In this document: positions 4,401-63,437 of the stretch, in pieces
Layout: the number at the start of each line of letters is the position of its first letter
How positions within the stretch are numbered: the stretch's first letter is position 1
Assembly: GCA_947179485.1 (NCBI GenBank)
Contig: OX359249.1
Coordinates: forward strand, 39,480,250-39,544,249
Direction of reading: 5' to 3'
From: Allacma fusca
Lineage: Eukaryota > Arthropoda > Collembola > Symphypleona > Sminthuridae
Length of the DNA: 64,000 bases
Position numbers and translations under genes: made by a program
The notes under the pieces: model-generated
Databases searched by the model: none
Told to the model about the DNA's origin: nothing
Seen by the model: only the letters and a program-made list of their open reading frames with translations

Positions 4401-7400
4401 AAGCGAGTTGTTTCTCCCAAGCAATATAAATATATCATTTTGCATGGTGTAGATGTTATACGTAGATGTTTTATAGATGTACATACCTCATCTTAAGTTT
4501 TCCACGGCAAATTATGCCTCACTTACTGCATTTCCATTTTTCCAGCCAGCCTCGCTCGTCATCAGAGCAGGCATTTTCTAATTCATACACCAAGCTGCAC
4601 TTAAGTTCCTAACCTCTCCGTATGGTTAACAATTTGTGACACTGCATCCCTCTGCTTACATATGTAGACATCTTCATTTATCACAACTGCCGTCGTGGTA
4701 ATTTAAAATCCCATTTACAGTAGTTACTCCGATAAAATTTTAGTTTGCATATGCATTTGTTAATTCCCTCGTTTCATCGTATCCCTAAGTGCCTTTGCTC
4801 ATTATTTCAATTGAGAAATAATACTTGCTACGGGGGATGTGCACGATCTATGCCCAAAGTATTATACACATACTCACAATTCACAGCAATAATGATATAA
4901 AACATTAAGTAGAATTGGCAATTAGGAATTAATCATTAAGTCCTATACACATGTTCCCTGAGTCGTATCATCTTATTGTTAGTTATTAAAGTCCTCACAA
5001 AACTAGTCAACGAAAACCTGTTGTGCAAGCTCTTAATTCTTAGTAATATAATGCAAGATAACACACACAGCTTTTAAAAGTAGTTTATCAACTCTTCATT
5101 TTGTAGAAAATGTCGCTCTGTTTTACCATCCATCAATTCTGACATGTAATTTAGTGGTTCAAACAATTTTCTTGTCAAGATTTTTGACCGCAGACCCCGC
5201 AACCCGCATCGAAAAGTGTCATAGTACAGAAGAATTACCCGGAACAGCCTCCCCTTGAAGCTGTAAACTTATTGTTTTTTTTGTTAGTATTGACCATTTT
5301 TTAAAAATTAGCTCAATGGCTCTGACCATAATGAAAATGTCGAGATTGTTTATGAGCTATACCATATCCAGCTCCTCTGAGCTAGGCGTGGACGTTTTTA
5401 TATTGTTTTACATGCATTGTAATCGAAATTGTTCCAGTTTTGTTCCAATGTCTCTGTTCTAAAAAAAATCACATGGTAGTCAACAGAAAATAGGACAACT
5501 TAACAGCACTACCCACACTTATCTTAGGTTGTCATCATTCATCATTTTTATAGGACACAGTTCTACAGTTCATGATGCATGTTCAGGGAATCAGAGGAAG
5601 TGAGGATGTTGGTAGCCAGGACACATCCGGGGGAAAGTTAAACTAATAACGGTACTCTTGTGTCTGCAATTCTCCCCAAAAGTTGGTATTACTTTGATGC
5701 TACTTGCATTTTGCTTATTATTTCTTACACTCTTTTGAAGGGTGGAGAAAGAAATGGGGCGGCTGAAGTGAAACCTTATTCTCTTGCAAAGTGAAATGAA
5801 AGAGTGATACAAAATGCATCAGACTTGTGTGTGTAGAGTGTGAGGAGGGAGAAGGAGTACATAAAAGTTTTGCGGATGAAAGTGCGTAGTCTTACTGTGG
5901 GAAGCTCAGGGAGTCTGTATTATATTTTTATATACATACATACCTTGGATGTATAAAAATATATACGGAAAGTTTTTACAAGACAGGCACATAAGTAGTG
6001 ATATTAGAAGGGAATTGATTTGGTGAGCAACTATAGAATACCAAATAGTAGCAATTTCCCCAGTGTACTTTTATTTGGTATTTCTATTCATTTATGTTTT
6101 GAAAATGCTGTCTGCCCCTGTGTGAGTATAAGACTAGGACAGAGCATCCCAAGGGGGAACATGCACTTGGAACACACTTTAGTCATTTATTTGTCATTGG
6201 GTACACAGATTCACATCAAACTGCAAGTTGTACAAGAAGAATTGCAACAGTTGAGTCATCGTCTGGACTGGGCAGAGGGACAGGATGATCGGTCTGTGGG
6301 TGAGGCCTCCTCCCTCCAACTAAGCCCTGGAGGACATTCCGAGCTGCGAACTCGGCTAAAATCCCTGAAAAATGAGTTTACCGAACTAATTGGAGAACTT
6401 CGTCGGCGATCATCAATTGTCGAAGGTGTCACCATCTCTTTCGAGGTAAATTACACTGACGTTCATAGACATAGTTGAACTCTTTTGTTTCCCTGTTCAC
6501 ACAATCATCATCACCATCATAATCCTATAGACAATTGTGGAGTTATAGGGGTGGACAGGAGACCCCAACTTTGTCTCCCTGGGTTAAATTTAAAGTTTTC
6601 ATGTTCAGTTAACCTTACGTAAAGATTGATGCGTTACTTACCATTACCGCACCCTGTCCGCACCAAGTATGTCCACCAATTCGCATGCTGTCTGATACTT
6701 ACAGCCGAACATATTGTCTGCATGAAGAAAGCACGGCAAATAAATATAGACCTATTCACCGGAACAGATTCCCATATTCTGAGCGGAGACTCTGAATTAA
6801 CCATTTAAGTGAAGATCTATCTGCTCGGAGAAGAAGTAAATCCTAAGGGGAAAAGTTCCTATCATCTGCCAAGTTTTTCATAAATAACTTTCCTCAAGGT
6901 TTTACCAAACAATTTTAAAACACTACCTGTCTTCTTCTATACCATTCTCTAGCACTTACGTCTTACTGAGTTCCTGAAAACTTGTTAAGTAGGTATCCGA
7001 TTTTTTTCATTTTCTCCCCATCTTTCCAAGTATGCGTAGATCTGTACTATCTGTACATATACATCTGTACGTGGCTTAGACCCAGAAACAGTATTTGTGG
7101 AAAACCTTCCAGCTGAGTTTCACTAAGAGACTTATATTTTCAAAAAGTGAAAAGTATTTTCTGCAAATAGTATTAGTAGGTATAGTTATACTTGGGTGGG
7201 TATTGCTCCAGACGATATTGATTTTTTTGGGTGCATGTTTAAGCATGCACCCGGGGCTTGAACAGGGGTTGTACGCTTGAGCATGAGTAACCCTCATGTC
7301 CGAGGTTTTTGAAATTGTCTCTGAAAAGAAAATCGTAGGAGTAAAGGATGAAAATTCTTGAAATATTTGGTATATCCCAAATTATTTTTGTAGAATCCTA

Positions 7401-10250
7401 ACTTGACAAGGAAGAAACCAGGTGATCTTACGATAGCGGAGGATCCTCAATCTCCAAAATAGAATAAAATTATAATATTTTGTCTAATGACTCTTTTCTT
7501 ATTGTTTTCTATCGGCGCTTCTATTGCATCATAGTCGTCAATTTTTCCGTATTAACATAAAGGTACGGTTTCTCTCCTAAATACGTTTGAAGTTATTTTC
7601 AACAAAGAATTCTAAATAGAACTCTTGCTTCAAAAATAAATGTTCACTAGAACTCTTGCTTCAAACATAAATTCTCAATAGAACTCTTGCTTCAAAAATG
7701 AATCCTTTGTAGAACACTTGCTCTTAAAAATGAATTCTTTATAGAACGCTTGCTCTTAAAAATGATTTCTGAATAGAACTCTTGAAAAAAAATCATTGTT
7801 TACGGGTTACGACTCTTATGCCTATAGCTTTTGATCTAGTACCCCACTTCAACGCTACATTTACTTAACAGCTGGAAAGGGGAAGCATGCATTTTCTCGT
7901 ATTCCGATGCAATCGCATCTCTGATCTTCTGATCTTGGCACCAGCCTTCGCTGCCTGCAGTTTGATAGTGCCCACGGTTTCTGGACGCAATTTGGACCTC
8001 AAGGGTGGAACTCTGGAAAAACTAGAATCCAATCCCGGATATTTGTATTGTTTGCACATAAATGAATGGTCAAAACATTATTTATGTGCACATGCATTAT
8101 TTTCCAAACAAAAAACAAAATACAGATACATATGTATTGTACAGGGTTTAAATTTTCTTTATCATATGTATCATACGCCTCATAAGTATCATATATACGT
8201 ATGTATCATACGTATCAGTACAAAAAGCATAGACTTTTCCTTAGGGCTGCTACGTTCGGAATCCCCAGCCCGAATTCGATTAAACAAATTCGTGAAGTTT
8301 CAAAAAAATTATATGGATTTTAGGACTCATTTTCCATTCACATGACTTGGAAAACATCCGACTTTTTGAAACCCCTCATTTGGCGTATAATAACTTCAGA
8401 AAGTACTGTAAAGTTTTTCAATATTCATTGTTATATGAGAATCCACGATTGTAATAAGAGATGGAAGCCAAATGAGAAAATTCAAAATGTCGCATTTTTT
8501 CGAGATCATGTAACTGGATAACTGCCATCTTAAAATCAATTTTTTTAATTTCACGACTGTTATTAACCAGGTACCCCCAAGTTTTGACGTTACTGAAATA
8601 ATTACAAATCTCAAAACATCGACACCAACAGACTTTTTGTCACCACGAATTTATACATAATTACGTACGTTGCCCGAAAAAATCAATACTGTCTGGAACA
8701 TTACCTGTATTCTACCAACATGAGACTACCCAGGTAGCACACATACTCAAATTTTACAATGATTAAAACTTTAGGACATGGTTGAGACACCGATGGGAGT
8801 ATTTCCTAGACAAAAGTTTAATTATTTTAGTTTTAAAATACCGCAGTAAAATACATGTCAAAACCGTTGATTCTCATCCTCAAGCGACCATATACAAGAT
8901 GTACCCTATTCTTTCCCCCTAGCACATACAAGAGAATGACGAAAAACGTAATTCACTCTTGCTGTAGCAAATTATTTTCCAAATATTTCAAAATTTGCTT
9001 CATTGACCAAGGTCAAGAGAAGTCGTCGAAAACGTAAAGCAAAGCCAGATTCTTTGAGGATTTTAGATAATACAAATTGTTATTCCCGGGCAATATTTTT
9101 TCTAAAAGACGCTACTTTGTAACAAATTTTATGAGCTTTCCAGGGAGCTTACTCACAAATCCCAAATTTGAGAATTATGTACATACATGGCCCGTAAGAC
9201 AGAGAGCAAGGTCAGGGAAATTTAGAATTATTCACTAACTTTGTCACACATTTCTGGCTCCTGAGAACGTAATTTTTGATTTAGGTGAATGATGCCAGTG
9301 TCAAGTAGTTCCCCAAGAAATTTTCTACAAAACAAAGTTTCGAAACGATTTTATAAATGGCATACAGCCCATGAAAAATGGCAAGCTCACAATCAGTCAT
9401 TCCTATTTTTCCTCATCTTTCTCACTTGCACCCTTCAAGCTGAATTTCCCCAACCTTCTCTTTTTACGGGTCATGCGCACTCAACGTTGGGACCTGTGAA
9501 TTACCTCCCTGGAAAGACTATAAAATTTCCTACAAAGAATCAGCAAAAAATCTTTAAGAGAAACTTTCAGTCGGAAACGAAAATTTGAAATTTATACAAT
9601 ACTAATAATGTTTTATTCCCGTCAAAAAATTCCCGTTAAAATAATTTCTAAAATCCGCGGAAAATCTTGCCTTGTTCACGTTGGATATTCTGACAGCAAT
9701 ACATGACCTGGGTCAATGAAACAAATTCTGAAAAATCTGGAGTCGAATTTTCTTCTACAAAAATACGATTGGCTCCACCTTATTTTGAACCTTGTTGAAA
9801 TCCCTCAGTTCCTTCCCTATTGACGAAAGTTAAAATTAGTTTTTATTAATTAATGATAATTGACAAGAAACCGAAGAATAGTATTATGCATCTGTCTCTT
9901 TGTTACCTCTTATGAATTATTGATGAGTTAACTTATTTTTGGTGTTGAGAGTTTGATATGTACTAACAACTAGTTTTATTTTTTCTTCCTGTCACTCTGA
10001 CTCCCCATGACAGGATGAAGAGATGGAGGAGGAATTCAGGAAACCAAGAAAACGAGCTTTGTCGGTGGTGTCCGTCACGCGAAGAAATAGTATTTTCTCT
10101 TCGAAATCTTTGACAACACCGGAGTCATCCCAGTGCTACTCATCGGATGATGACCTTTCCTCCACTACAACTCCACCCCCACCAGATATAAGAATGTACT
10201 CTCCAAATCTACGACATACTTCTCAATCCATTCGGACTACTGCTGTGTAA
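1483..10250 (+). CDS. WS/DGAT-family O-acyltransferase, C-terminal part (5' end outside window)
   Basis: Three coding exons join in phase 0: 1483-1698, 6209-6445 and 10014-10250 (stop TAA), giving 229 residues. Acceptors are CAG at 1481-1482, 6207-6208 and 10012-10013; donors are GT at 1699 and 6446. Exon one carries the C-terminal signature of the wax-ester synthase/diacylglycerol acyltransferase family: an NLPGP motif, then [16 protein letters not shown], then YADQVHVTV. Members esterify acyl-CoA to a long-chain alcohol or diacylglycerol at endoplasmic-reticulum or lipid-droplet membranes; the catalytic HHxxxDG motif would lie upstream and is not seen. Exon two is a charged amphipathic helix, probably coiled coil ([15 protein letters not shown], then [20 protein letters not shown]). 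Exon three is a basic/serine-rich then proline-rich disordered tail ending in SIRTTAV. The tail exons are joined by phase and spacing only, so the family call rests on exon one. Confidence 0.72.
1699..6208 (+). other. Intron of the O-acyltransferase gene
   Basis: A 4.5 kb AT-rich intron with matching phase-0 GT and AG ends. It contains an unexplained 127-codon minus-strand open frame (2441-2824) and a short GC-richer island (about 4281-4365), listed separately. Nothing else recognisable. Confidence 0.65.
2441..2824 (-). other. Unidentified 127-codon open frame inside an intron
   Basis: A minus-strand frame, long for such AT-rich DNA, reads as plausible protein (for example [19 protein letters not shown], then [14 protein letters not shown]). 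I recognise no family. I see no clear splice signals, promoter or poly(A) signal, and it lies antisense within the O-acyltransferase intron. It may be chance, a decayed retrocopy, or an exon of a nested gene. Confidence 0.2.
7229..7252. repeat. Perfect 9-bp inverted repeat (hairpin)
   Basis: GGGTGCATG and CATGCACCC flank a six-base spacer, TTTAAG. It is a perfect palindromic stem in an otherwise AT-rich intron. No function is evident. Confidence 0.7.
7617..7790. repeat. Minisatellite, 31-32 bp unit, six diverged copies
   Basis: Units begin TAGAACTCTTGCTTC or a close variant at about 7617, 7648, 7679, 7710, 7742 and 7774, spaced 31, 31, 31, 32 and 32 bp. The first three share the spacer TTCAAAAATAAAT; the later ones switch to CTTAAAAATGAAT, so the array falls into two sub-types. 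It is intronic with no coding potential. Confidence 0.85.
7871..8047 (+). pseudogene. Relic of thymidine phosphorylase exon 4
   Basis: This block matches TYMP exon 4 (20396-20669) and some 25 bp of the intron before it. Its conceptual peptide runs [10 protein letters not shown], then [18 protein letters not shown], then NPGY. By hand count 28 of 38 residues are identical to the live exon. The live acceptor context (CAAAG before GTATCTCTG) is CAATCG here, so the AG is lost, and an 8-bp internal duplication (CTGATCTT repeated) follows. Similarity stops after about the first third of the exon. Because intron sequence is included, this is a genomic duplication and not a retrocopy. It sits on the same strand about 12.5 kb upstream of the live exon. 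Confidence 0.85.
8161..8217. repeat. Irregular short tandem repeat (GTATCATA-like)
   Basis: Variants of GTATCATA and GTATCATACG recur several times in about 57 bp, immediately downstream of the TYMP exon-4 relic. Simple AT-rich repeat. Confidence 0.55.
8930..9170 (+). repeat. Diverged dispersed repeat, copy 1
   Basis: The order CAAATTA, then TTTTC with ATTTGCTTCATTGACC, and later TTGTAACAAATTTTATGAGC and CTTTCCAGGGAGCTTACTCA is echoed at about 11100-11320. It shares its middle part with the inverted arms listed at 8980-9745. Confidence 0.45.
8980..9745. repeat. Diverged long inverted repeat
   Basis: The left arm (about 8980-9085) contains TTTCAAAATTTGCTTCATTG followed by ACCAAGGTCA and, further on, GGATTTTAGA. 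The reverse complement of about 9620-9745 contains TTTCAGAATTTGTTTCATTG, ACCCAGGTCA and GGATTTTAGA in the same order and at similar spacing. The arms are clearly related but degenerate, as in an old MITE or foldback insertion. Confidence 0.55.
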
Positions 10251-18065: not shown

Positions 18066-21000
18066 ATGTCTGTGGCTGAAGTTCACTCAATTGTGGAGTT
18101 GATACGAGCAAAAAGAGACAAAAGAGAGCTGAGTGAAAATCAAATCAAGGCTTTCATTTCCAAATTAGTTTGTACTAATGAAGAGGACCGGGTTCATGAT
18201 TCACAAATCGGTATGTGTCATATTTAAATATCTTTATTATCTTCCACCTCCCAGGCATGCCTCCTCCCCTGTCTTGTCTTTACATTTGTCCTTAATAAAG
18301 CAGGAGTTGTAGACTCCATGAGAAGTAATGTCTTATTTCATGCATGTCGTATGGTTGAAAGTAATCACAGAGATAATGCAGATAAGTAAGAGTTTCCCGA
18401 GCAAGTTCCGTCCAATCAACTTGTGTACTCAAACTTAAGACACTGTTGTTTTATCCGTGCCCGAGTCTCAATGTAGTCAATACTTGTGTATGGTAGGCGG
18501 TATGGTAGGGTAGTGTCAGGTCGTTAAATATTAAGGCATTTGTAATGCTTCAGCGACAAAATGCCTCCAGGAATCCAAAATCATGAATTATTAAGTCAGT
18601 GGAGACTACCATGTAATCTTAGTTGCATGTCAAGGTGTGGGGGATTCTCACCTTCGAGTAAGTTTTTTTTTTAAAGGAAAGGAAAGTAACTTAATATTTG
18701 ATCAATTCTCCTCCTTTCTTATTAGGATTGAATATCATTTTTCATAGTTTCTGTGACTTTAAGCACAAGTATTGTGTCACCATGAGACTCTCTAAAACCA
18801 GCCCAAAAAAAAATATTGTAAAAATCTGGAATATTTTTAGGTGCATTTTTGATGGCAGCCTTCCTCAATGGATTCACTTTCTTGGAAACGTCCTACTTAA
18901 CTCAAGCCATGACCTACTCGGGTAAGTTATGCAAAATAATTTTCAACTTAATTTCCACCCTTGCATGATTCATACCATTACCAAAGACCATATATGGTGC
19001 TATAAACTATACAATCATGTATGAACCTGAATTTATAATTCTACTGCAATACTCTTGGACGCCATTGTTTCCCTCGACAAAAACATGCGTAAGCAATTAA
19101 CAAAACCCAGAACAATAGCAAGAAACCCCAACTCCTACCCACAAGACTGTTCACTACACCCAAGAATTTGTAATTATAGGATTCACATTCAGCTGGCCAC
19201 AGGAATGGAGAGGACGGGTAGTGGATAAGCACAGCACGGGAGGCGTTGGTGATAAAGTGAGTGGGGAATGAATGAATGCATTAATGTATAATAGCTTAGA
19301 GGTTTCATCTCATTTTCTGATTAACTATATCGCTCTCTTCAAGTTTTTGGTCAAGCCTAATGAAGTTCAGTGGAATTTTAAGGATAATTTTTTAGCACAT
19401 CTCTTTACTACAAAATTAGAGCATGTGCACTAATTAACACTTACTAATTAATTTAGATTGGGTTGATTATTGAACAGCAAAGAAGGTTCAGACTGAATAC
19501 AACATAAAGATATGTGTTGTAGTCGGAAAGATTTCAAGCAGGACTGTGTCTCACGAACGACTGTTTTCAATCTGGCCCAGTTCAGAACATGCATTCACAT
19601 CAGAATTGTTTATCCCCGAGGAAATCTCGTGAAGTTTGCACTTTCCCCAGTTTTCTGCTCATATATTCACTTGTAGGGAATAACTAAAATTGAGCGTGTA
19701 TTGACATTCATTGAGCTTTCAGTGCCTTTTTTTTGTTACCTGGTGACTTTTATGTATCTATAGATATGTATATAAAATATATATCCCATGTTTACAAGTT
19801 TATTAACAATGTCTTCAATTGTGATCCTCTTGTATTTACTGAGTGGACCTCATATATCCTGTAAATTTTACCCCTGAAAACCACTGAGGAATTACAATTA
19901 CCATTCAACCCAAGTTCTTATTATCTTTGAGTATGGTTTCTTCCAGAGATAAGAGCATGTTCGGAAAATGACTACATTCCTGGAGCACATTACTGGGGCA
20001 GTAAATCCTCTCGGAGTAAAATAAATGAAAAATACAGTAGATGAAAAAACAGTGGCTTGAAGGAAAGCTATACAATCCCAAGTTTTACAACCACAGATCA
20101 AAATGGGAGTCGTGTTCAGTTGATTTTTATATGGGAATTGAAAAAGATAAATGATGGGTATGGTGTGCTACGAGCAGAAAGTCATAATTCTGTATAGGAT
20201 CAAAGTTTCCCTTTCGAGTACCAATTTTAGGTATATGTGTACACAGCCTGCCATGAAAAAAATTCATCTGTGCCCGTTACAGCTCTTAGACGTATAGAGC
20301 TTTCAAATATAAGGATCTAGGAACCTATTCCAATGCTGTATGTATGTAACAGGAGGAGAAGGGAAGTATGAATTTTCTCGTTTTCTGATGCAAAGGTATC
20401 TCTGATCCTGGCACCAGCCCTCGCTGCCTGTGGTTTGAAAGTACCCATGGTTTCGGGACGGAGTTTGGACTTCACGGGTGGAACTCTGGATAAGCTTGAA
20501 TCCATACCAGGATTTTCAGTATCTTTTTCGCCTGACAAAATGAGAAAAATTGTTGAAGATGCGGGTTGCTGCATTGTAGGTCAGACGGAGGATTTAGTTC
20601 CAGCTGATAAGTTACTGTATCGAATAAGAGATACTACTGCAACGGTCGAACACGAGGACCTGATTTCTGGTAAAAAGTCAAAAAAATTGCTAACTCAGTC
20701 TGCCACAAAACAATACAATTTATGTTCAGGGACAATTCAGAGACATCTATTCAGTTTTCACTTTGATCTCCAACCAAACCTACATACATCCAAAATATTT
20801 GAAACTGGATCACGCTGAAGTTCACAAGAATTTCGTTGACAATGCGGGTTAAATCTAGTGCTAACTATATAGTTTCATACCCAACTATTAATTTTGTACA
20901 TGAAATTACACAGCTTCCGTGATATCCAAGAAAGCTGCTGAGTCTCTGGATGCACTGGTTCTAGACATAAAGGCGGGTTCTGGTGCCTTCATGAAAGACA

Positions 21001-24000
21001 TAGAGTCAGCTCGTCATTTAGCCTTGAATATGGTAAGTTTAGCTTTGTCTTGTAATGCTCACTCTCTCTCTCTCTCTCTCCCTCTCTCTCTCTCTCCCTC
21101 TCTCTCTCTTTCTTATCCCATTCTCCCCATAAATTCTAACGACTCTCGGACTTCCTTCATATTCTTGCTCCAGAAATGTGGAACTATCGGACAAATGCAC
21201 GTTACAGATACAAGGAGAAAGTATTGCAGCAGGAAGTAAAAGTTCAGAATCCCCACTACATCCATTCTTGCTCTTTTCGGGATACATTCACATAATTACA
21301 CAGAAATTAGCATACTACCGGCTCTTTTGAAATAGCGTTTAAACATTCATACTCTGTGGGACACTTCCAGAGCCAGGATGCATATTTGAGCCAGTAACGT
21401 CAGTCCCTCCAGTTATGACTCCAATGTTTATGGAACCAGGAGGGAATTACATGCACGCACATACGATACAGACGTACTGAGGCATATAGGGACACATCCA
21501 TCCATGTACAGCTTGAGCGGATAACTATATTATTCTGGGAGCCAAGTACCCTTTACAACCGTACAGCAGAGCATCGCCAGGAGCTCGTTTGAAGCCCAAC
21601 ACAGCTCTTTAGCGTATTGATTTTCTCCAAACTTACATGATAATGATGACTGCTAGCATATTATTTTTCTCGAACATTTTTCAATGCGGAAATATGTTGG
21701 GAAAGTCAGAAAAGCTCGTCTCATTAACTTTTTACAATAGCTGCAGTAATGCAAACTCAAATAATAAAGTAGAACTGCAGGATAGTCGTTAATAGTGAGG
21801 GAACCCCTGAGAGAGGCATAATTCGACATGAAATGATCAGTTAGAATTTTGTGTCCTGATTTCTTCACCTATATACATATGTACTTATATCCCGTGTTAT
21901 TGCCGCTTTAAAGATTTTCGACAGGTATGGGAAGAATAAGGGGATTTAAAAATAGAACTTTGTTCCAGCTGGAAAGGTGGAATTTCCCCGAAGGAAGGGA
22001 ATAAGAAATGAAACTAACTGTATAAGGAGAACCTGCTCCCAGGTAGGCTGAGTGAGTGGGCCGCTCAAACATGGTACTATTACAAGACGATTGCTAGTAC
22101 TAGTTGTAACAATAAATTCCCCTCAGTGAGCTTACCTCCGTGGGGATAATAGATACCCGTCCTACATTACAGGACGAACTATAGCTATTTAAGTACAACC
22201 GGAGTGACAAGGTTATGATCACACGTGTGTTGTGTAATGTATAACTACTGGTGGGCTAATGGTAACGTCTATAGAGGTGGATGGGCTGATGGCAGCAATA
22301 ATAAAAATCGTTATGGCAACAGTTTGACTCTGGTGTGAATTCCCATATGCGACTGGCATACATACAACCTCACCAAGTAGCTTAAATATGTAAGGGAACT
22401 GGCTGAGACGTGAGTGGGCTATACCCAACCCTAGTAATGGGCTTTAATACCAATGTGTGATAATAATAATTGAATTCCAGGTGAAAATTGGCAATACATT
22501 CGGTATGAAAGTAACGGGCGTTATAACAAGGATGGATACACCGTTGGGAAATGCAGTGGGAAATGCTCTTGAGGTAGCGGAGGCGATCGATGCTCTGCAA
22601 AACAAGGGCCCTCCAGATCTTCACGAGATTGTCTTAACTCTAGGTTCGATTTATTTTATGATCCACGTGTGATTTTATTATGTGGTTCTTTTACTACAAA
22701 TGGACCTTTTCAAATAATACAGGCTATATATTATTCCTCATCTTTCCTTTCACTATTATTTATTGATCGGATTTTTCCTTCAATTTCCCCTTCCTATTCC
22801 CCTCGCCCTGCATGCCTGTCTGGGAGAGGGAAAACTCAACCGATACGGATGCTTATTTTTTTTTCCTGTTGTACTCTCCATCCGCAACTATCGTTTTTAT
22901 TCTCCTCTATTTCTTTTCTCTGGCAGCTCAAATTAGTTTCCCAGAAACTAACTTTTACAAATTCAAATCAACTTCACGAATAGAGTCAGAGGGAAATATT
23001 AAAACACATCTATACCAAGTCATAACAGTATGAGGGAAGAGCTCGGGGCAGTCAACTTTGTACGTAGTACTAGATTTCCTAAGTTTTTTTCTTTTCTGTA
23101 GGACAAGGAAAAGGAAGAGTGCTTTCAGTGAGAGGATTTCTAGGGAGTCATGACACTCAAAAGCTGCTTATATGCCAGCTACTCTAGATGATTTTTTTTC
23201 TTGGAAAAATTTCGAATGGAATGAACCAGAACTTACTAAATAATTTTAAAGCCTTGTTAAGAAAGAGATATTTCCAATAGTCTCTCCTACTCCTACTAGA
23301 AAGATATTCCTAGGAGGAAATGTGCTACAGTAAGTACAATTTTCTAGATGCCATTTTTGACATAATACAAACATCAGTTCCTGTAGTGTGTCGCAATTCG
23401 ATAGTAGGATCTTTACAAACCTAAGATTCATTTTGTGTCTCCTCTCTCCCCGTCGTATATTTTTGCTCCATCTGTAAAGGAAATTTTCGAAAAAAGGCCA
23501 ATACTAAATTAAAGCCAGTTTTATGAAGGCAAGGAGAATATAAGGCCACCTAAATTCAAGCCAAGAGAAAATAAGGCCATCTAAAATGAAGCCACGAAAA
23601 AATAAGGCCACATATAGCACACTTAAATCGTTTTGTGATGTTGGTTTTTGAATAATTTAATTTCCCAAGAATTCAGAGTGTGCCAAAATCCATTTACATT
23701 AACCCTTTGGAAGTAGTTCGTGCAAAATCCAAACGAGAATGATAAATAAATAACTCAAATGGAGTTCATTCGCAATTAAATTGCAATTCAACTCTCGGTA
23801 TAGTTAAAAGATCGCACAGCTAATTATGAAAAATTTAATTAAAACCAGCATATACAAATAAATTCCTAAATGTAATACAGGCACGAATTCAATCTATTTT
23901 TCGACCACTTCTCAATGTGATCCTGGCAGCTTCGGCAGCGCTTCGCGTTTGTCTTCGTTCATCTGATGAACCTTCACTTGACTTTGCTTTCTTCCTGGCT

Positions 24001-27000
24001 GATTTTTCCGCGAGCTTCTTCAAATTCTCATCAGATGTCAGGAGCTCGGCTTGTTGTCGTTGTCGAGGCTTTCGGGTCAAAATTTCGCGATCTAATTCAG
24101 GAAACTGAAATCCAACTCCAACTTCTCTAGGGCCGACTGTAAATGCCTTTAAAAAGTTGAAAATGAAACGAATAATTTACAATTTGAGTAGATTTGTTTT
24201 GATTCTTGTACTGTAATTATTGTTTCTACATATAATTAATGTAAAATAGTTTGTTACTAAACTAGTTAGTAATTCGTATGCCAAGAATAATTAGGTCATT
24301 AAACCTGCAATTGATGATATAAGTAATCAAAAGCAGTAAATTAAAATGAAAAATTTGTTTATTTTAAATGTTTATATGAATATTAGAACCTTTTTTGATC
24401 CACCACGCGGAATTATTAAGTCTACGATGCCTTGTTCATCTATTTCCTCCCCGGTTGAAAGTACCAAATCTTTTTCCTTAGAATTAGGAGAAACATCAAT
24501 TATGTTGTAGGATTCATCTGTATCATCGTCGGTTGAGGACTCTTCATGTCCTTTGCATTCGGAAGTTCTTGCTGAACCCCGCCGTTTTTTTAAAACTTTG
24601 GATTTTTTTCCACAAACTGACTGGTCGGTTGGAGGCCCACCTGGCAGCCCTGTGTGTAACCAAGGTGGCTGGTCTGAATGAGGCCTACCTTGAGGGCTGA
24701 GACGTATTCCCGGTGGCTGGTCCCGCGGAGGGTCAGATGGTGTGTCCGAAGCACATACATACGGCTGACCTTGAAGTATATCGAAGAAGTCCGTGTGGAT
24801 TCCAGCTGGCTGGTCCGGAGGTCCACTTGGGGGGTTGTATAGGACACCAAGTGGCTGGTCCGGAGGTCCAACTGGCGGCTCAAGTTCGAGTGCCCGTGGC
24901 TGCACAATAATTTCGCTAGAAGATTTGGTATGAAAGTTAGGTTGGTCCTCATTTTCGCTGCTTTCACTTCCAAAATCTAATGGTGGTGGTATAGGTAATA
25001 TCGATAAAGTTTCATTCAATGTAATAGGTGAATCTTCTCGCGTCCATTTAGGGGGTTCGAACATGCACCACATGTTCATATCACTAAAATAGTCCTGGTT
25101 TTCAATAACTGTAGCCGGTTTCTTTGTGAGACTTTGGTGTAATTTCAATGGAATTAAAGGTGGTATATTTTTACGAAAGCAAACAGGAGTAGATGATAAG
25201 CTTTTTGAAAAGTCAGCTGGCTTATTCCGAGACACTACTCTATTGTTGAAATTGTTCGTAACATCCTGGTGTGATCCGCATTGCAAATTATGCGATGGAA
25301 ACGGTGGTTGTGTGTACAGCTGTTTTCTGATTCCAACTGGAGTAGGTGGAAGGCTTTCAGAAAATCGGCGTGGCTGTTCCAGAGTTGAACTTGATGGGCT
25401 TGTCTGGAATCCACGTGGCTGGTCCGGAGGTCCACGTGGTGGGCTTGCCTGGTAACCGCGTGGCTGGTCCGGAGGTCCACGTGGTTTGCTGGTCTGGAAT
25501 CCACGTGGCTGGTCCGGAGGTCCACGTGGTGGGCTTGCCTGGTATCCACGTGGCTGGTCTGGAGGTCCACGTGGTGGGCTTGACTGGTAACCGCGTGGCT
25601 GGTCCGGAGGTCCACGTGGTGTGCTGGTCTGGAATCCACGTGGCTGGTCCGGAGGTCCACGTGGTGGGCTTGTCTGGTATCCACGTGGCTGGTCCGGAGG
25701 TCCACGGGGTGGGCTTGCCTGGTAACAGCGTGGCTGGTCCGGAGGTCCACGTGGTGTGCTGGTCTGGAATCCATGTGGCGGGTCCGGAGGTCCACGTGGT
25801 TGGCCTGTCTGGTTCTCATATGACTGGCCAGGATGTCCAATGTGTTGGTCTGGAGGTGCCACTAGAGGGTCGTTCTGGAATATTGAAGTCTGTTCAGGCA
25901 GTACAGGGGGAGGATCTAAATTAGTTGCTTGTTGGTCTTCGGCTGGACTGTCAGGTGGGTCGTCGGGATCCGAATCTGAATTTGGATGGCTCTGAAGATT
26001 TTCTTCGCTCTCGTCATCGTCGGAAAAATCTCCGTCAAATATATGTTTATTCGGACCCCATTTTTCCAATACTTCATCATACCTCCAGATCCCTGCCTTA
26101 CTGAAAGCATTGATTGCAGTTTCACGTTTGAATGTATCATTACAGGCCAGCTTGAAAATCCCGGGTATATCACTTAACATTGGTACGCGTCCCTGCCTCG
26201 CCGGGTCAGACAACCATCTTGATAGATATTGGTCATATTTTCCTTTCAATGGGCTAAAGAGACCCACGTCAAGTGGTTGCATTTTGTGGGTGCTGTGTGG
26301 GGGGAGAGTTAACATGTCGATTTCATGTCTGCGACAATACCGAACGGCCTTGTAGCTGATGTGGGATGAATGGTTGTCTAATATCAGTAAAACTCTCCCC
26401 TCACCCACATGTCTTCGGAAATGGTGTAACCAGGTGAGAAATGAGTCCGACGTACTCCAGCCCTTCTTGGTTCTTGTAAAAATGGAATTTTCAGGAGCGT
26501 GCATCATGGTAACATTCCTTGCGCTTGATGGGAACACGAACATTGGTGGAAGAAAGGTTCCACTAGCGCTGAAACAGCATAAAACTGTACACAGTTGTCC
26601 TCTCTCAGCGGGGACCATAACATGAACCGACCTTGCACCTTTACGAGCAAGTACCTTTCTTGGTTTGCTCTGATTAAGAAAATAAAGATTATGTAAATAT
26701 ATTTATATTGAAACACTGATTCTTTATATTTAGTTTTAAATTTAAAAAGTTTGCGTTGCTTAGAATTTTATTATTGGCTATTAGTAACTATGCTTGTCTT
26801 CAAATAATAATAATTTTTACCGGTACAACGGTAATCCCTGTCTCGTCGACATTATAAATAGTATTGGCGGTGTATCCTTTCGCTTCTACTACTTCGTGGA
26901 GTAAATCAAAGAATCGATAAACTGGACCCCTTTTAAATGACGTGATGCGGATTAAACTAAGCGGAGTTCCTGTTCTTACTGAAAGGTACTTTTCGTGGCG

Positions 27001-30000
27001 GTGAAGAAAGGACGTGACCCACCCATCACTGGCAGCACCGTTTGCAAATTCATGGTCTAATCCATTCCTAATCGCTAATCCACACGCTAATTCAGCCAAA
27101 GCCCGTCTGGTCATACCATGAAATCTGTCAAAAATTCCATACTTGTTAAATGATACTAATTAATTATATGTAATCGCATATTTCATTTCCAGTTTCAATT
27201 TTTGACATTTAAAATAATTATACATAATTAGATATAGTACAAAAAATAAATTCATGCCTGTTTGCCAACATGTGGATGTAACTGACTATCTCTTTCTCCA
27301 TATCCTCAGTAAATACGGGTGTACGGCCTTGGGAACACTCGTCAGGAATATCTTCGAAATTGTATTTCAAATATTTTTGAAATACCGAACGCGTGAGACC
27401 GAATAACAGACAAGTTTCTCTTTGGTTAGGAATGTCCATGGATTTATAAAATCTAATGGCATTCTTTATCTGTTCCCCGAGAACTGGTACAGAATTTCGC
27501 TGATACCCTCTCACTAATTAAAAGCAAAATACAAACTATAATAATAATAAATAAAATAGATATTTATGTTATTATAATTACTTAATTAGTAGAAACAATA
27601 TCACAGGGATGTACTCGTAACTTACTTTCTTAAAAGATAGGTATGCCTCCATCACCGTAAATGCTTAATGTTATACTTAATGTAAATAATCCACACTATG
27701 TAAACAATTAACGTTAACTTACCCATTTCGTCTCTTGAAAAATTTCTCCTCCCTTACTTGAAAATAATGATCATATCGCTTGTGAAAAACAAAAATCGTG
27801 TCTATTCCTCCCTTTGAAAAATCAAATGCAGTAAGGCAACGATCTCCTTTCCAACGTAGTACGTACAATGGATCACGTTATGAATCAATATTTGAATTTT
27901 TGCAAGTTAAACCATAACTATGTAATTAAGCGGTAATTAGTTATGCGGTACTATCATAATGTTATTTATATGGTGACAAACGCTTTGAATAGATGGCTCA
28001 AAATTTTATAATTTAAGGTAATCAGTACAAGCTAATAAATGAGATGATTGTGGAAGTATTATTATGATATTACTTACAATAAAATTATGTGAGTTTGGAA
28101 CAATTATTTGTGGACACGCATTATGAAATAAGTACTGGGAATTCGGGATAGGAAGGATTTCTTCTAGGAATCATTTGTGCTGTTAAGTTGTTTCGACCAA
28201 TTTACAAAGACGGGAGTTTATAATTGCGGTCAGTTAACTGAAGGTAAGCTTTCGAAGTATAATTAATCATCTACACTGACTTGTGTATGTATTACTACGT
28301 GATTATATAAAGCTTGAGTTTACATCCTTTGTTTTGTTTGCTTCAATTAATTATTTTTATTTAGAAGCGGTATAACAATGCTTCTAACGCTATTAAACGA
28401 ATACGTCAAGAAACTTTGGGGCTTCTTCAAATCCATATTTACTGTCAACCAAGAGTTACTCGATTTACCAGCGTTTGGACCCCCTGCCGATGCCGAAGAA
28501 AATCTGAATTTGGTAGCAGATCCTGACGAAGTTTTTGCTGACGCTATGGACAACCCTCCCTGGATTGCTGGACAGGAAGTATCGAGGATAGAATCGCGAA
28601 TGGGTTAATTTTATTCAAAACTTAAAATGAATTAATTCCCTTATCGAAGTTCATGCTTCCGTCTCGTATAGACAATATTACATAATGTAAATATTATATA
28701 CTTTCTGACTTGGCTGTTTTATTTTGATTTGTTTTTTTCTTGTTTGATTATTGGTTGTTTAGGATGAAAACCACTACATGTATTGATTCCTTTTGACACT
28801 CGTGAATGATTAATAAAGCTTAACTAACTATTCTGTTGTATTGATTATCTATCAATGAATGCAGGCTAGCACTGAAATTTGGACACTCCTTTAAATTATT
28901 TTTAAGACAATTAGACATCTTACATTTAATGTATTTATGTAATTTTATCATTTACATTTTTATGGCTATAGCAACAATCTTAAGCATATTGTAAATGGTG
29001 ACTGGGACCAAGAAAATGCGTTCCTTGTGGGGGGAAAGCAAAGCAGCGTTTATCTTGATGACAAAATAGTAAAATAAATTTCTTAGATGTGGCCTTTTTT
29101 ATAGTGGCTTCATTTTAAGCGGCCTTTTTTACAACGGCTTTATTTTGAATGGTTTTTCTGTGGCTTTAATAATGTAGGCTTTATTTTTTCAACGGCTTTT
29201 TTTCGAAAATTTCCATTACATATGTATATACACTTATGTAGATACTTGGGATAATATAGGGGATTTTTGTAAAGATGGGAAGGGATGAATACATTTCATG
29301 GGAAATTTGTCAGTCTACCTAACTCCATAATCTATGTCTGTCTATATTACTACATTAAATTGACAATTTCAAACGAATGAGAAATGCTCAGCCTGTCAGT
29401 TTGAGTTTAGAGGAGCGGGAATTGAGTATACTTCACTCATCAAGTGCTCCTCGTGCTCACATCGTCATATCAAGTCAGATTTAAGCTCATACATACGTAC
29501 ACACTTGAAATTAGAATAGCGGAGAGAATCCTTGGAATTTTGATTTTAGCAATAAAAATCCTCCCGGTGGCTGAAAGATGAGAGATTTTGGATAGGATGA
29601 GGGTCTCAAGAAATTTTTTTTTACTTTTATAACGGAACAAGTAGCTACCGCATTTATCGTTTATTGTAGTAATAATTGTCTGCTACCGTATAAAATTTGA
29701 TATGGACTCCATGTCCGCCCTGAGTATGAAACCTCAGTGTAATGAACAAGTTTCAATCATGAATGTAAATATAATATGGATTCTTCTCTTAGTTCCTTCC
29801 ATCCGGAGGGAATATCTTGACATGACTCTGAGCTCATTTTGTTGGCTGGGCATTCATAACAAAACAGAAACAGTCCTTTCATCTTCGTCGTACTACTTGT
29901 ACAAAAAAAATACAGCCGCAGTAAACAAAAACCTCTTCAGGCAAATACTTGACTCACAAGTTGGTACATATAATTACATATGTATAATTATATATAATTA

Positions 30001-50217: not shown

Positions 50218-57508
<7,291 letters not shown>

Positions 57509-60516: not shown

Positions 60517-63437
60517 TACACACTGGCTTTCACTTCTTTAGAATTGTTATTATTGTTACTGTCATCTTCTTTTCCCAGACCATTAATTATGGAGTCGGTG
60601 GTGTTGTAAAAAATTCCGTACCTCTTTGAAGGTGGTTTCGGTTTAACTTCGGCCGGACGAGGTCCTTGGTTACCTATGATAATAGGATTTATTTTTAAGG
60701 TGTTCAATGATAAATTCCGGAACGCTTCGACTATCGCATTTGTCATTATCACATTTTACAGCTTACTTCAATAAATCGCTTGTGATTTTATAATGGTCAG
60801 TTCTGAAATGATGGCATTTAATTGAATCAAAAGAATAATAATTACCTCCGAAAAGAAGTTTCTCCAGCTGGATGAATGGGGACTCGAAACATATTGTGCA
60901 AACAAATCCTACCACAAGTGACATGATTACATGAGCGAAGAAGAAGTTAGTCTGAAATCAATAACAGTTAAATATAATAATAATTCATTGCGTCCACCAA
61001 AATATTAAGCGAATAGTGTGTAGTTTTTGAAAACCTTCAGCAGTGAAAACTGAAAGCTTACCATGATGTAACTACTGAAGTGCAAGGGTTGTCGTATAGT
61101 AAGATGCAGGACGGTCTGCACGTGCAGAGATACCAAGTAGGTGGTGAACGAAAGTCGACCAAGAGGAATAAATGGTGTCCATGATAAAAAGTTATTTATA
61201 TAGCCTCCGTAACCATTAATGCAAGCAAAAATAATCCACGAAATGCTGATTGCCCAACCGACGCGATGGAACGACGCGTATATGACTTTCCATGCTTGTG
61301 GAATTGGCGTTAGTGGGTCAAACCACGGGGCAATGCCATATAAAACAGCCAAAGCAATACCCGTGGAAATTACCCATCCCAGCATCACTACAGGAGGAGC
61401 TAGTTTTATTTTTTTACCCCTTGTCTTGAATAAAAGGTACCCCAACCACATCCCGACAAAGTAAGTTTGAACTCTAGTCCACGGTTTGATGTAAACGTCT
61501 GCGTAAAAGGATTGGTTGCTGTAAAAAACAAGTTGAAATTATATATCTGTACAGTTGTATTACACAAATGCAGTCAAGCAATAAATGTTAAGCTCACCTT
61601 CGTGATCCAATGATTGTGGGTACCGGCCTGTCTTCAAGTTGAACGTGTAATCCAGGAGCGGCGATGGATAATATTGTGAGTACACCGAGAATAATCTTCC
61701 CAGGAACTTTAAATTTCCACAATGGGTAAACCAGTAATGGTGTGAAAATATAAAACTGCATATCATCCGACAAATACCATGCTTCTGCTTGGCACTATTA
61801 GAGAAATATGTTTAGCATAAGTATTCAAACCATTTTTCAACAACCGACTTTCGATCAAACAATCTGAAGCTACTTACGATTTCTGAACTGTAGACCAAGT
61901 TGTTAATATATAATAAATTTGTCCACCAATGATCTTTGCAATATTGTCCCCACTCGTTCATGAGTCCCCAGTATGGGCCATTACCAAGAAGCGGGAAAAT
62001 TGTTGCCATAATACCCACCAAGATTGCATAAGTTGGTGTCAGTCTAGAATAGGAATAACACAGATGTTCATTAGGCTGTTTATTCAGAGCTCATCAGCAG
62101 ATTCATTGGAAATTAATGTGGAGTAACATGTGAAAGGTTTCATACATCATACTGTATGATTTATAACATACCTTAAATACCGATGAACCACATACATAAT
62201 GTAGTTAATTTGTCCACCGGTTTTTGCGTAAGTTTTCAGCAGATTGTAAGATACTAGCATGCCGCCCATAACAAAGAACGTATCTACGGCTACGGTTGCA
62301 TTAAGCATTGTCAAAACGGTCCAAGTTTTGTGTGCCTGTGTATTATAAATTACAATTTTACATACTGCAAATGTTAAATAAAGCAATTTTGAAAATATCA
62401 CCCCAAATTTTTCTTACCAACTTCACGTCCACCATATTCCACCATGGAACATATATAACCATAAACCAAGTATGGGCTAGGATGACCCACAAAGTACTCA
62501 TAAATCGCAAACCATGGAGGCAACCAAAATTTTCGCCACCCCCTGGGCCAACATTCTGCCATTTCCTAATATTGGTAATCAAAGAAAAAGCAACGAGTAC
62601 CTGAACCCCCGTACCTGCAACAATGAAAGCATGAACATAAAGTAAAAATTTCATTTCTAAACAAATACACTTCTTATGGTCGTAGGAAGCTATAATTTGA
62701 AGTACCAGGTTTGCGTTTGGGTTTATCAGGGTCTGCATTTCGAGCTAAACATCCGTCTATCATTGTACCCACAAAAATGAGCAAGCCGAGGACTCCCAAT
62801 ATACCTCTGTGTGGGAAAGTTTATAAGAAAAAATGGCTATTAGGGAACGGTTCATCCTGAACATTTTCAAGGGATTATTAACACTTGCTCTTACATCATG
62901 GCCCAATCTCCAGTATTGAGATGTGTGTCTTCTTTAACATCACAACTAAGAATTTGACTATATAGGCCAATCTGGGCAAACATGTACGTGGTGAGTTTAT
63001 TCACATCATCTAAGTTGCATGAAGATGGTAGGCATACAGTGGTGGACGGATAGACTAGAGCTCCTTGTTGTATTCCAATTAATTCCTAGAACAGAGGTGA
63101 CTCAATTATTAACTGTTCCAAAAAGATAGATTGCTAGTACAGGACCGATAGAACACAGCAAAATAAATCATAATGGAGACAAAACCTACCCATAATTCTT
63201 CAACGTCGACTGCACCTTTTCTTTCCCTTATCTGCTTGGTAACGGAAGACGATGGCAAAACTACCAAGTTGCAGAATTGTCCGCGGAAGAACTCGTCTAG
63301 ATCCAGATCCTTTGGGTGATTAGGGTAGAGAATTTCCAGATGGTTTACGTTGATGTTATAACATTCGTCAAAATCTCCCATGGAATTGACGTGACCCGTT
63401 AGAAATCCTTCGGGTATTTTACCCCATGAGTCGAGCA
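60516..63437 (-). CDS. NRF-6-like membrane acyltransferase (nose resistant to fluoxetine family), 5' end outside window
   Basis: A multipass membrane protein with an N-terminal NRF domain and an acyltransferase-3 domain. C. elegans NRF-6 acts in lipid/drug transport; the reaction in arthropods is not established. Ten exons in transcript order: 63437-63190, 63085-62895, 62806-62706, 62614-62418, 62335-62172, 62043-61878, 61794-61598, 61518-61062, 60951-60846, 60673-60516; phases agree throughout, about 661 residues. The NRF part has LDSWGKIPEGFLTGHVNSMG, FDECY and paired cysteines (TVCLPSSCN). The acyltransferase part has HGLRFMSTLWVILAHTW, VDTFFVMGGMLVSY, YLSDDMQFYIFTPLL and PLGRLSFTTYLVSLH, with about ten hydrophobic segments. 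The C-terminus is a polar tail with a five-asparagine run from an AAT-type microsatellite. The first exon enters in phase 1 behind a TAG acceptor, so signal peptide and start lie beyond 64000 or in an unseen upstream exon. Confidence 0.9.

Follow-up and report, generated by a model that had tools for sequence, protein, structure and literature searches.

On its sequence anatomy, the 5,740-bp element at positions 23477-29216 of a 64-kb stretch of the genome of the collembolan Allacma fusca (contig OX359249.1, forward-strand positions 39,480,250-39,544,249; hereafter the window, whose first base is position 1) is a cut-and-paste transposon of the pogo superfamily. We judge, with a probability of roughly 85%, that it is a complete and probably autonomous, or recently autonomous, copy inserted at an intronic TA dinucleotide of a thymidine phosphorylase gene. 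All four features tested agree with published descriptions of the superfamily. These are a DDE_1 domain, an HTH_Tnp_Tc5 domain, a spacing of 35 residues between the last two catalytic aspartates, which lies within the range from DD29D to DD59D given for pogo elements (PMC7386202), and terminal inverted repeats (TIRs) flanked by TA, the superfamily's other accepted flanks being TAA and TAAA. The element had been called pogo-like when the sequence was first inspected, and each of these features bears that out.

Element boundaries and terminal repeats

A TA dinucleotide lies directly outside each edge of the element, at 23475-23476 on the left and at 29217-29218 on the right. Taken alone, a 2-bp duplication is weak evidence; these dinucleotides coincide with the outer edges of the left TIR (23477-23616, plus strand) and the right TIR (29084-29216, minus strand). 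A blastn comparison of the window with itself paired 23469-23616 with 29224-29084 at 71.6% across 148 columns (E = 4.8e-11). When the terminal 150 bases of each end were aligned locally, they gave imperfect repeats of about 138 bp, with 101 of 139 columns identical and a score of 76. Controls stayed well below this score: the maximum was 30 for 150-mers drawn from outside the element and paired at random (2,971 pairs), and 34 for 1,000 single-base shuffles. Counting inward from the third base, both tips read GGAAATTTTCGAAAAAA. The original prediction had listed TA target duplications and inverted repeats of 130-137 bp; the dinucleotides are where they should be, and the repeats stand far above the chance controls.

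The ends carry regular arrays of a short motif. Fifteen ARGCC-type motifs are spread over the two TIRs, 14 of them ARGCC and the other AGGCA, and an extra A precedes the motif in 12 of the 15 copies. At the left end the eight GC cores fall at offsets 20, 37, 52, 68, 83, 99, 114 and 130, the third motif being AGGCA, and at the right end the seven cores fall at offsets 20, 37, 52, 78, 93, 108 and 123. Neighbouring motifs are 15-17 bp apart throughout, save for a single 26-bp gap at the right end. The inner five left-end copies are by turns AGGCC and AAGCC, which accounts for the 31-bp tandem period reported there (23526-23611) by Tandem Repeats Finder. When ARGCC was counted per strand over the whole window, each end held 7 copies per 120 bp, compared with no more than 3 in any other part of the window, a value reached inside the element's own coding tandem repeat. 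The motifs are putative binding sites for the transposase.

The transposase gene

The minus strand of the element is predicted to encode a transposase of 1,033 residues in a five-exon splice model; the alternative product, if the transcript ends within exon 4, has 953 residues. The start codon is predicted at 27726, and the coding part of exon 1 (27726-27723) consists of this ATG and the first base of codon 2, followed by the donor GTAAGT; the protein begins MVRGYQRNS. Exon 2 (27513-27258) encodes the N-terminal DNA-binding region, according to the splice model and Pfam. It is separated by intron 2 (27257-27125; donor AACAG/GCATGA, with the slash at the exon boundary, and an AG acceptor) from exon 3 (27124-26821), which holds the C-terminal part of HTH_Tnp_Tc5 and the first catalytic aspartate, in the sequence NVDETG. 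Exon 4 (26669-24390), recognised by its DDE_1 match and by a stop-to-stop open frame of 776 codons, supplies the second and third catalytic aspartates of the DDE domain and a long proline-rich tail. Exon 5 (24146-23889) is uncertain; joined in frame at the acceptor TTTTTAAAG, it would add a basic C-terminal tail of 85 amino acids and a stop. Two other beginnings of the gene were rejected: a coding exon further upstream, at about 27740-27870, which by eye has no in-frame ATG, the ATG that ends exon 1 giving an in-frame start, and a start at about 27653, which would require a later and poorer acceptor.

The spliced N-terminal 399 residues match the Pfam families DDE_1 (90.1 bits, E = 1.6e-25, cut-off 22) and HTH_Tnp_Tc5 (31.4 bits, E = 1.8e-07, cut-off 22.2). 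There is also a match to an IS630 transposase model of NCBIfam (E = 4.9e-12); its 45.9 bits fall short of the model's cut-off, 100. On its own, the exon 3 frame scores 18.8 bits for HTH_Tnp_Tc5, below the cut-off, and joining exons 2 and 3 raises this to 31.4 bits; the junction between them is therefore well supported. The catalytic aspartates are D180, D286 and D322, and the 35 residues between the last two make this a DD35D enzyme. No stop codon or frameshift was found in more than 950 codons of the spliced model.

These results largely sustain the earlier description of an uninterrupted, intron-containing DD35D transposase of nearly 1,000 residues, in an apparently intact element. The catalytic spacing, the predicted introns and the length (953 or 1,033 residues, depending on the splice model) are as described. 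"Uninterrupted" is correct for the reading frame, which is open, and needs qualifying at the donor after exon 2, which is GC instead of GT. Likewise, the ends and the open frame speak for an intact copy, and the GC donor of intron 2 calls for caution.

The tail encoded by exon 4 includes a tandem array at 25369-25813 on the minus strand (9.9 copies of a 45-bp unit, with a 135-bp higher order), identified by repeat finding and translation. It encodes nine proline-rich repeats of 15 residues, the last of them diverged, and proline makes up 19% of transposase residues 406-950. The ratio of nonsynonymous to synonymous rates (dN/dS) among the nine units is 0.60, a value that we set aside as evidence because the units are short and related. 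The repeat-bearing tail is probably disordered and may aid multimerisation or the recruitment of host factors. Searches against solved structures gave no match at E up to 1 for the exon 4 frame and, for the 399-residue part, only three unrelated matches with E of 0.26 or worse. An AlphaFold model of the exon 4 catalytic piece had a mean predicted local distance difference test score (pLDDT) of 38.7 and no confident fold.

A candidate second gene on the opposite strand

An open reading frame (ORF) of 76 codons, beginning with ATG, lies on the plus strand at 28378-28605. Its codon use was scored with tables derived from the transposase, from host exons chosen by eye, or from both. The ORF's own frame comes out on top with all three tables, at 0.22-0.30 bits per codon, and the other five frames stay below 0.15. 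Non-coding samples average between -0.10 and -0.04 bits per codon, and 0 to 0.1% of the 4,000 samples per table reach the score of the ORF. Upstream, a possible intron in the 5' untranslated region (28244-28364, GTAAGC...TTTAG) was recognised by eye only, and an AATAAA follows downstream at 28812-28817. The original prediction had proposed a second small gene on the other strand, and it is the coding-like codon use, length alone not being significant, that upholds the proposal.

In a single-sequence AlphaFold model (mean pLDDT 70.7) the predicted protein forms a helix from residue 2 to 28, with ten-residue means of 92, 92 and 80, and little else. The helix is amphipathic, with a hydrophobic moment of up to 0.64, and the C-terminal half is acidic, the last 46 residues carrying a net charge of -8. 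Weak Pfam matches to AP5B1_N and DUF1155, both below cut-off, were rejected, as was kinship with the transposase, the best BLASTP alignment to the 399-residue part covering 21 residues with E = 0.069. Judged solely by its position, the 76-residue product is probably a helper or regulator encoded by the element.

Alternative explanations

Several observations weigh against a complete and autonomous element with two genes. Its mobility is read from its anatomy alone. HTH_Tnp_Tc5 is the one N-terminal domain that Pfam lists for the transposase, and none of the psq, Brk and CENP-B_N domains appears among its matches up to E = 10. The in-frame stop of exon 4 at 24372-24374 is closely followed by an AATAAA starting at 24363, which fits the shorter protein without exon 5; the codon score of exon 5 is coding-like, and the other two minus-strand frames score about equally in two of the three codon tables. 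The GC donor of intron 2, together with a donor after exon 4 (AAG/GTTCTA) that looks weak, suggests that this copy may not make full-length transposase. One tentative alternative takes this further and supposes a decayed, non-autonomous copy, in which the GC donor arose by mutation of a GT and production of full-length transposase has ceased. The sequence AG/GCATGA does depart from the usual GC-AG consensus, AG/GCAAGT. However, GC-AG introns are a normal minor class, and decay sits poorly with more than 950 codons free of stops and frameshifts.

The remaining objections concern the small ORF, and they would be accommodated if the element were an ordinary one-gene pogo, its 76-codon ORF a product of chance or a captured fragment of host sequence and its long ends merely unusual TIRs. 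The length of the ORF is unremarkable: 68 of 500 first-order simulated sequences reach 76 codons, and in non-coding parts of the window, sampled as 54 overlapping pieces as long as the simulated sequences, the longest ORF beginning with ATG has 75 codons, one short of the candidate. The protein has no family above cut-off in Pfam or NCBIfam, and no relative in IMG/VR. In addition, where pogo elements with two ORFs have been published, transposase is what the ORFs are said to encode (PMC7386202). What speaks against a one-gene element is the in-frame codon score, which almost no non-coding sample attains, although those samples share their source sequence with the non-coding table; so does the bracketing of the ORF by a spliced leader that is plausible by eye and by an AATAAA. 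On balance we consider the one-gene explanation rather unlikely. Much less probable still is a domesticated transposase gene that keeps remnants of transposon ends. CENP-B and at least eleven further vertebrate genes derive from pogo transposases (PMC7386202), and a long open frame with an added tail and a multi-exon structure would suit a gene of the CENP-B or TIGD kind. Yet both ends are present, match each other, are flanked by TA and bear regular motif arrays, and the gene lies antisense between the exons of another gene.

Proposed mechanism and significance

If the element is a complete pogo transposon, the N-terminal DNA-binding region of its transposase would contact the ARGCC arrays. 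A spacing of 15-16 bp, at which each pair of motifs takes up 31 bp or about three turns of the helix, would allow several transposase molecules to load next to one another at each end. The loaded molecules would then bring the two ends together, cleave the DNA with the DDD centre and reinsert the element at a TA, and the 76-residue helper or regulator would be transcribed divergently from the transposase. It is conceivable, though we would not favour it at present, that the element represents a two-component pogo lineage, in which a DD35D transposase of about 1,000 residues loads in register on 7-8 ARGCC sites per end and the divergently encoded amphipathic-helix protein is its obligatory or regulatory partner.

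The accessory gene and the multi-site ends are the features most worth following; in size the element is unusual within a known group, the pogo elements. If it does combine multi-site ends with a second protein of its own, it would provide a natural test of higher-order end complexes and helper proteins among the IS630-Tc1-mariner enzymes, both already suggested in other superfamilies. Should it prove to be no more than a large, private variant, it would add to the structural diversity of pogo and nothing beyond.

Host gene and neighbouring sequence

On one side of the element a plus-strand frame at 20372-20815 matches the Pfam family Glycos_transf_3 (71.0 bits), and on the other side a plus-strand frame at 48911-49195 matches PYNP_C (48.1 bits). 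These flanking frames agree with the thymidine phosphorylase gene named as host in the original prediction, and the element would lie antisense inside an intron of that gene. A degenerate second copy of a thymidine phosphorylase exon was found at 7833-8043, about 12.5 kb upstream of the intact exon at 20314-20516. The two align at 76.8% over 211 columns, with a net 8 bp inserted in the copy, and Pfam reports no domain in the copy's frame at 7869-8342. A 33-bp inverted repeat (85%) spanning 7199-8705 surrounds both this copy and a 31-bp tandem array (7608-7784). The segment is possibly a non-autonomous element with a captured exon; no target duplication was recognised at it, and the blastn match is a short one (E = 5.8e-4). 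The interval 8330-8521 holds an inverted repeat of 55 bp that is 76% complementary and encloses a loop of 82 bp; it may be a small foldback element or a miniature inverted-repeat transposable element.

Further along the window, two minus-strand frames are assigned to a PRMT3-like arginine methyltransferase, one at 56791-57297 (ANM3_C2H2_Zf, 33.7 bits) and the other at 55316-55690, where Methyltransf_11 was matched below cut-off only. Two additional minus-strand frames, at 61008-61538 (Pfam matches below cut-off only) and at 62361-62744 (no Pfam match), look like parts of an acyltransferase of the nose-resistant-to-fluoxetine type, a multi-pass membrane protein. Rfam returned no match at gathering score anywhere in the 64 kb.

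Searches for relatives

We searched IMG/VR and prokaryote genomes, collections that are not expected to contain animal transposons. Six transposase peptides, one of them intron-derived, gave seven stretches in IMG/VR that matched the pattern, none of which was confirmed, and the small protein gave 17 stretches there, again with none confirmed. A degenerate DNA pattern for DD35D, which recovers the element in the window, had no match in IMG/VR; in prokaryote genomes it had four, and none was judged by eye to be a transposase when the frames were translated. Full-text literature was screened by titles and the beginnings of abstracts, and none of the matches listed announced a small, divergently oriented second gene in a pogo element; as the screen reached neither Repbase nor the majority of subscription papers, it is weak evidence of absence.

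Comparison with known pogo elements and other transposons

In the published survey, pogo elements measure 1.20-5.20 kb and contain either one ORF or two, for transposases of 300-977 amino acids (PMC7386202). Their TIRs fall into classes of up to 40 bp, 40-60 bp, about 100 bp and, in insect elements that are unclassified, 392-856 bp (PMC7386202). By these figures the Allacma fusca element lies slightly past the published limits of size (5.74 against 5.2 kb, and 953 or 1,033 against 977 amino acids) and would not be a new kind of element; its TIR of about 138 bp falls between two of the published length classes (PMC7386202). The original prediction had contrasted it with typical pogo and Tigger elements, and that contrast was overdrawn, given that pogo elements of 5.2 kb, with 977 amino acids, two ORFs or TIRs of 392-856 bp are on record (PMC7386202).

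None of the groups compared here shares all of its features. The unclassified insect pogo elements with long, Type 4 TIRs likewise combine DDE_1 and HTH_Tnp_Tc5 with TA targets and TIRs beyond the classical 40 bp, but theirs measure 392-856 bp compared with about 138 bp here (PMC7386202). DD35D itself is assigned to pogo groups 33-40 by Dupeyron and colleagues (PMC7325037). Passer, a pogo element active in cells with a single gene and 28-bp ends (PMC9976928), has DD35D and TA in common with the element (PMC9976928, PMC7386202). In contrast, Passer elements are reported to have one ORF, 400-500 amino acids, a length of 1.6-4.0 kb and, for the most part, TIRs below 30 bp, and the element differs on each count (PMC9976928). 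BrkDBD, frequent in Passer, is absent from the element's Pfam matches up to E = 10, and some Passer elements have HTH_Tnp_Tc5 alone (PMC7386202). Fot and Fot-like elements resemble it in their DD35D signature, in the TIRs of about 100 bp of FotC, in the presence of HTH_Tnp_Tc5 alone in some members and in the use of TA by some Fot-like elements (PMC7386202, PMC7325037). Most Fot elements, however, use TAA, and they are described as mainly fungal (PMC7386202, PMC7325037); their TIRs are mostly 40-60 bp, and those of FotC about 100 bp, ranges that cover most members and that fall short of the 138 bp or so found here (PMC7386202). The Tigger elements of bees share the superfamily, have insect hosts and are given as DD29-36D, 907-4,213 bp long, with TIRs of 10-33 bp (PMC8472432). 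For Tigger/pogoR, the TIR class of 40 bp or less, which is given for most pogo families, is exceeded by the 138 bp or so found here; CENP-B_N is lacking among the element's Pfam matches up to E = 10, and some members are reported with HTH_Tnp_Tc5 alone.

The closest parallels for the ends and for the accessory gene come from further afield. In Galileo, of the P superfamily, the TIRs are long and internally repeated and contain several sites that the transposase binds, and higher-order multimers have been proposed (PMC3688188). As Galileo belongs to another superfamily and has a THAP domain, the resemblance would be one of analogy and not of kinship, and the binding demonstrated for Galileo is here a property that we infer (PMC3688188). 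The ciliate elements TBE and Tec are of the Tc1/mariner type and carry additional ORFs, one of which lies on the complementary strand in Tec (PMC7325037). They differ from the element in their DD34E transposases, their ciliate hosts and the nature of their accessory proteins (PMC7325037).

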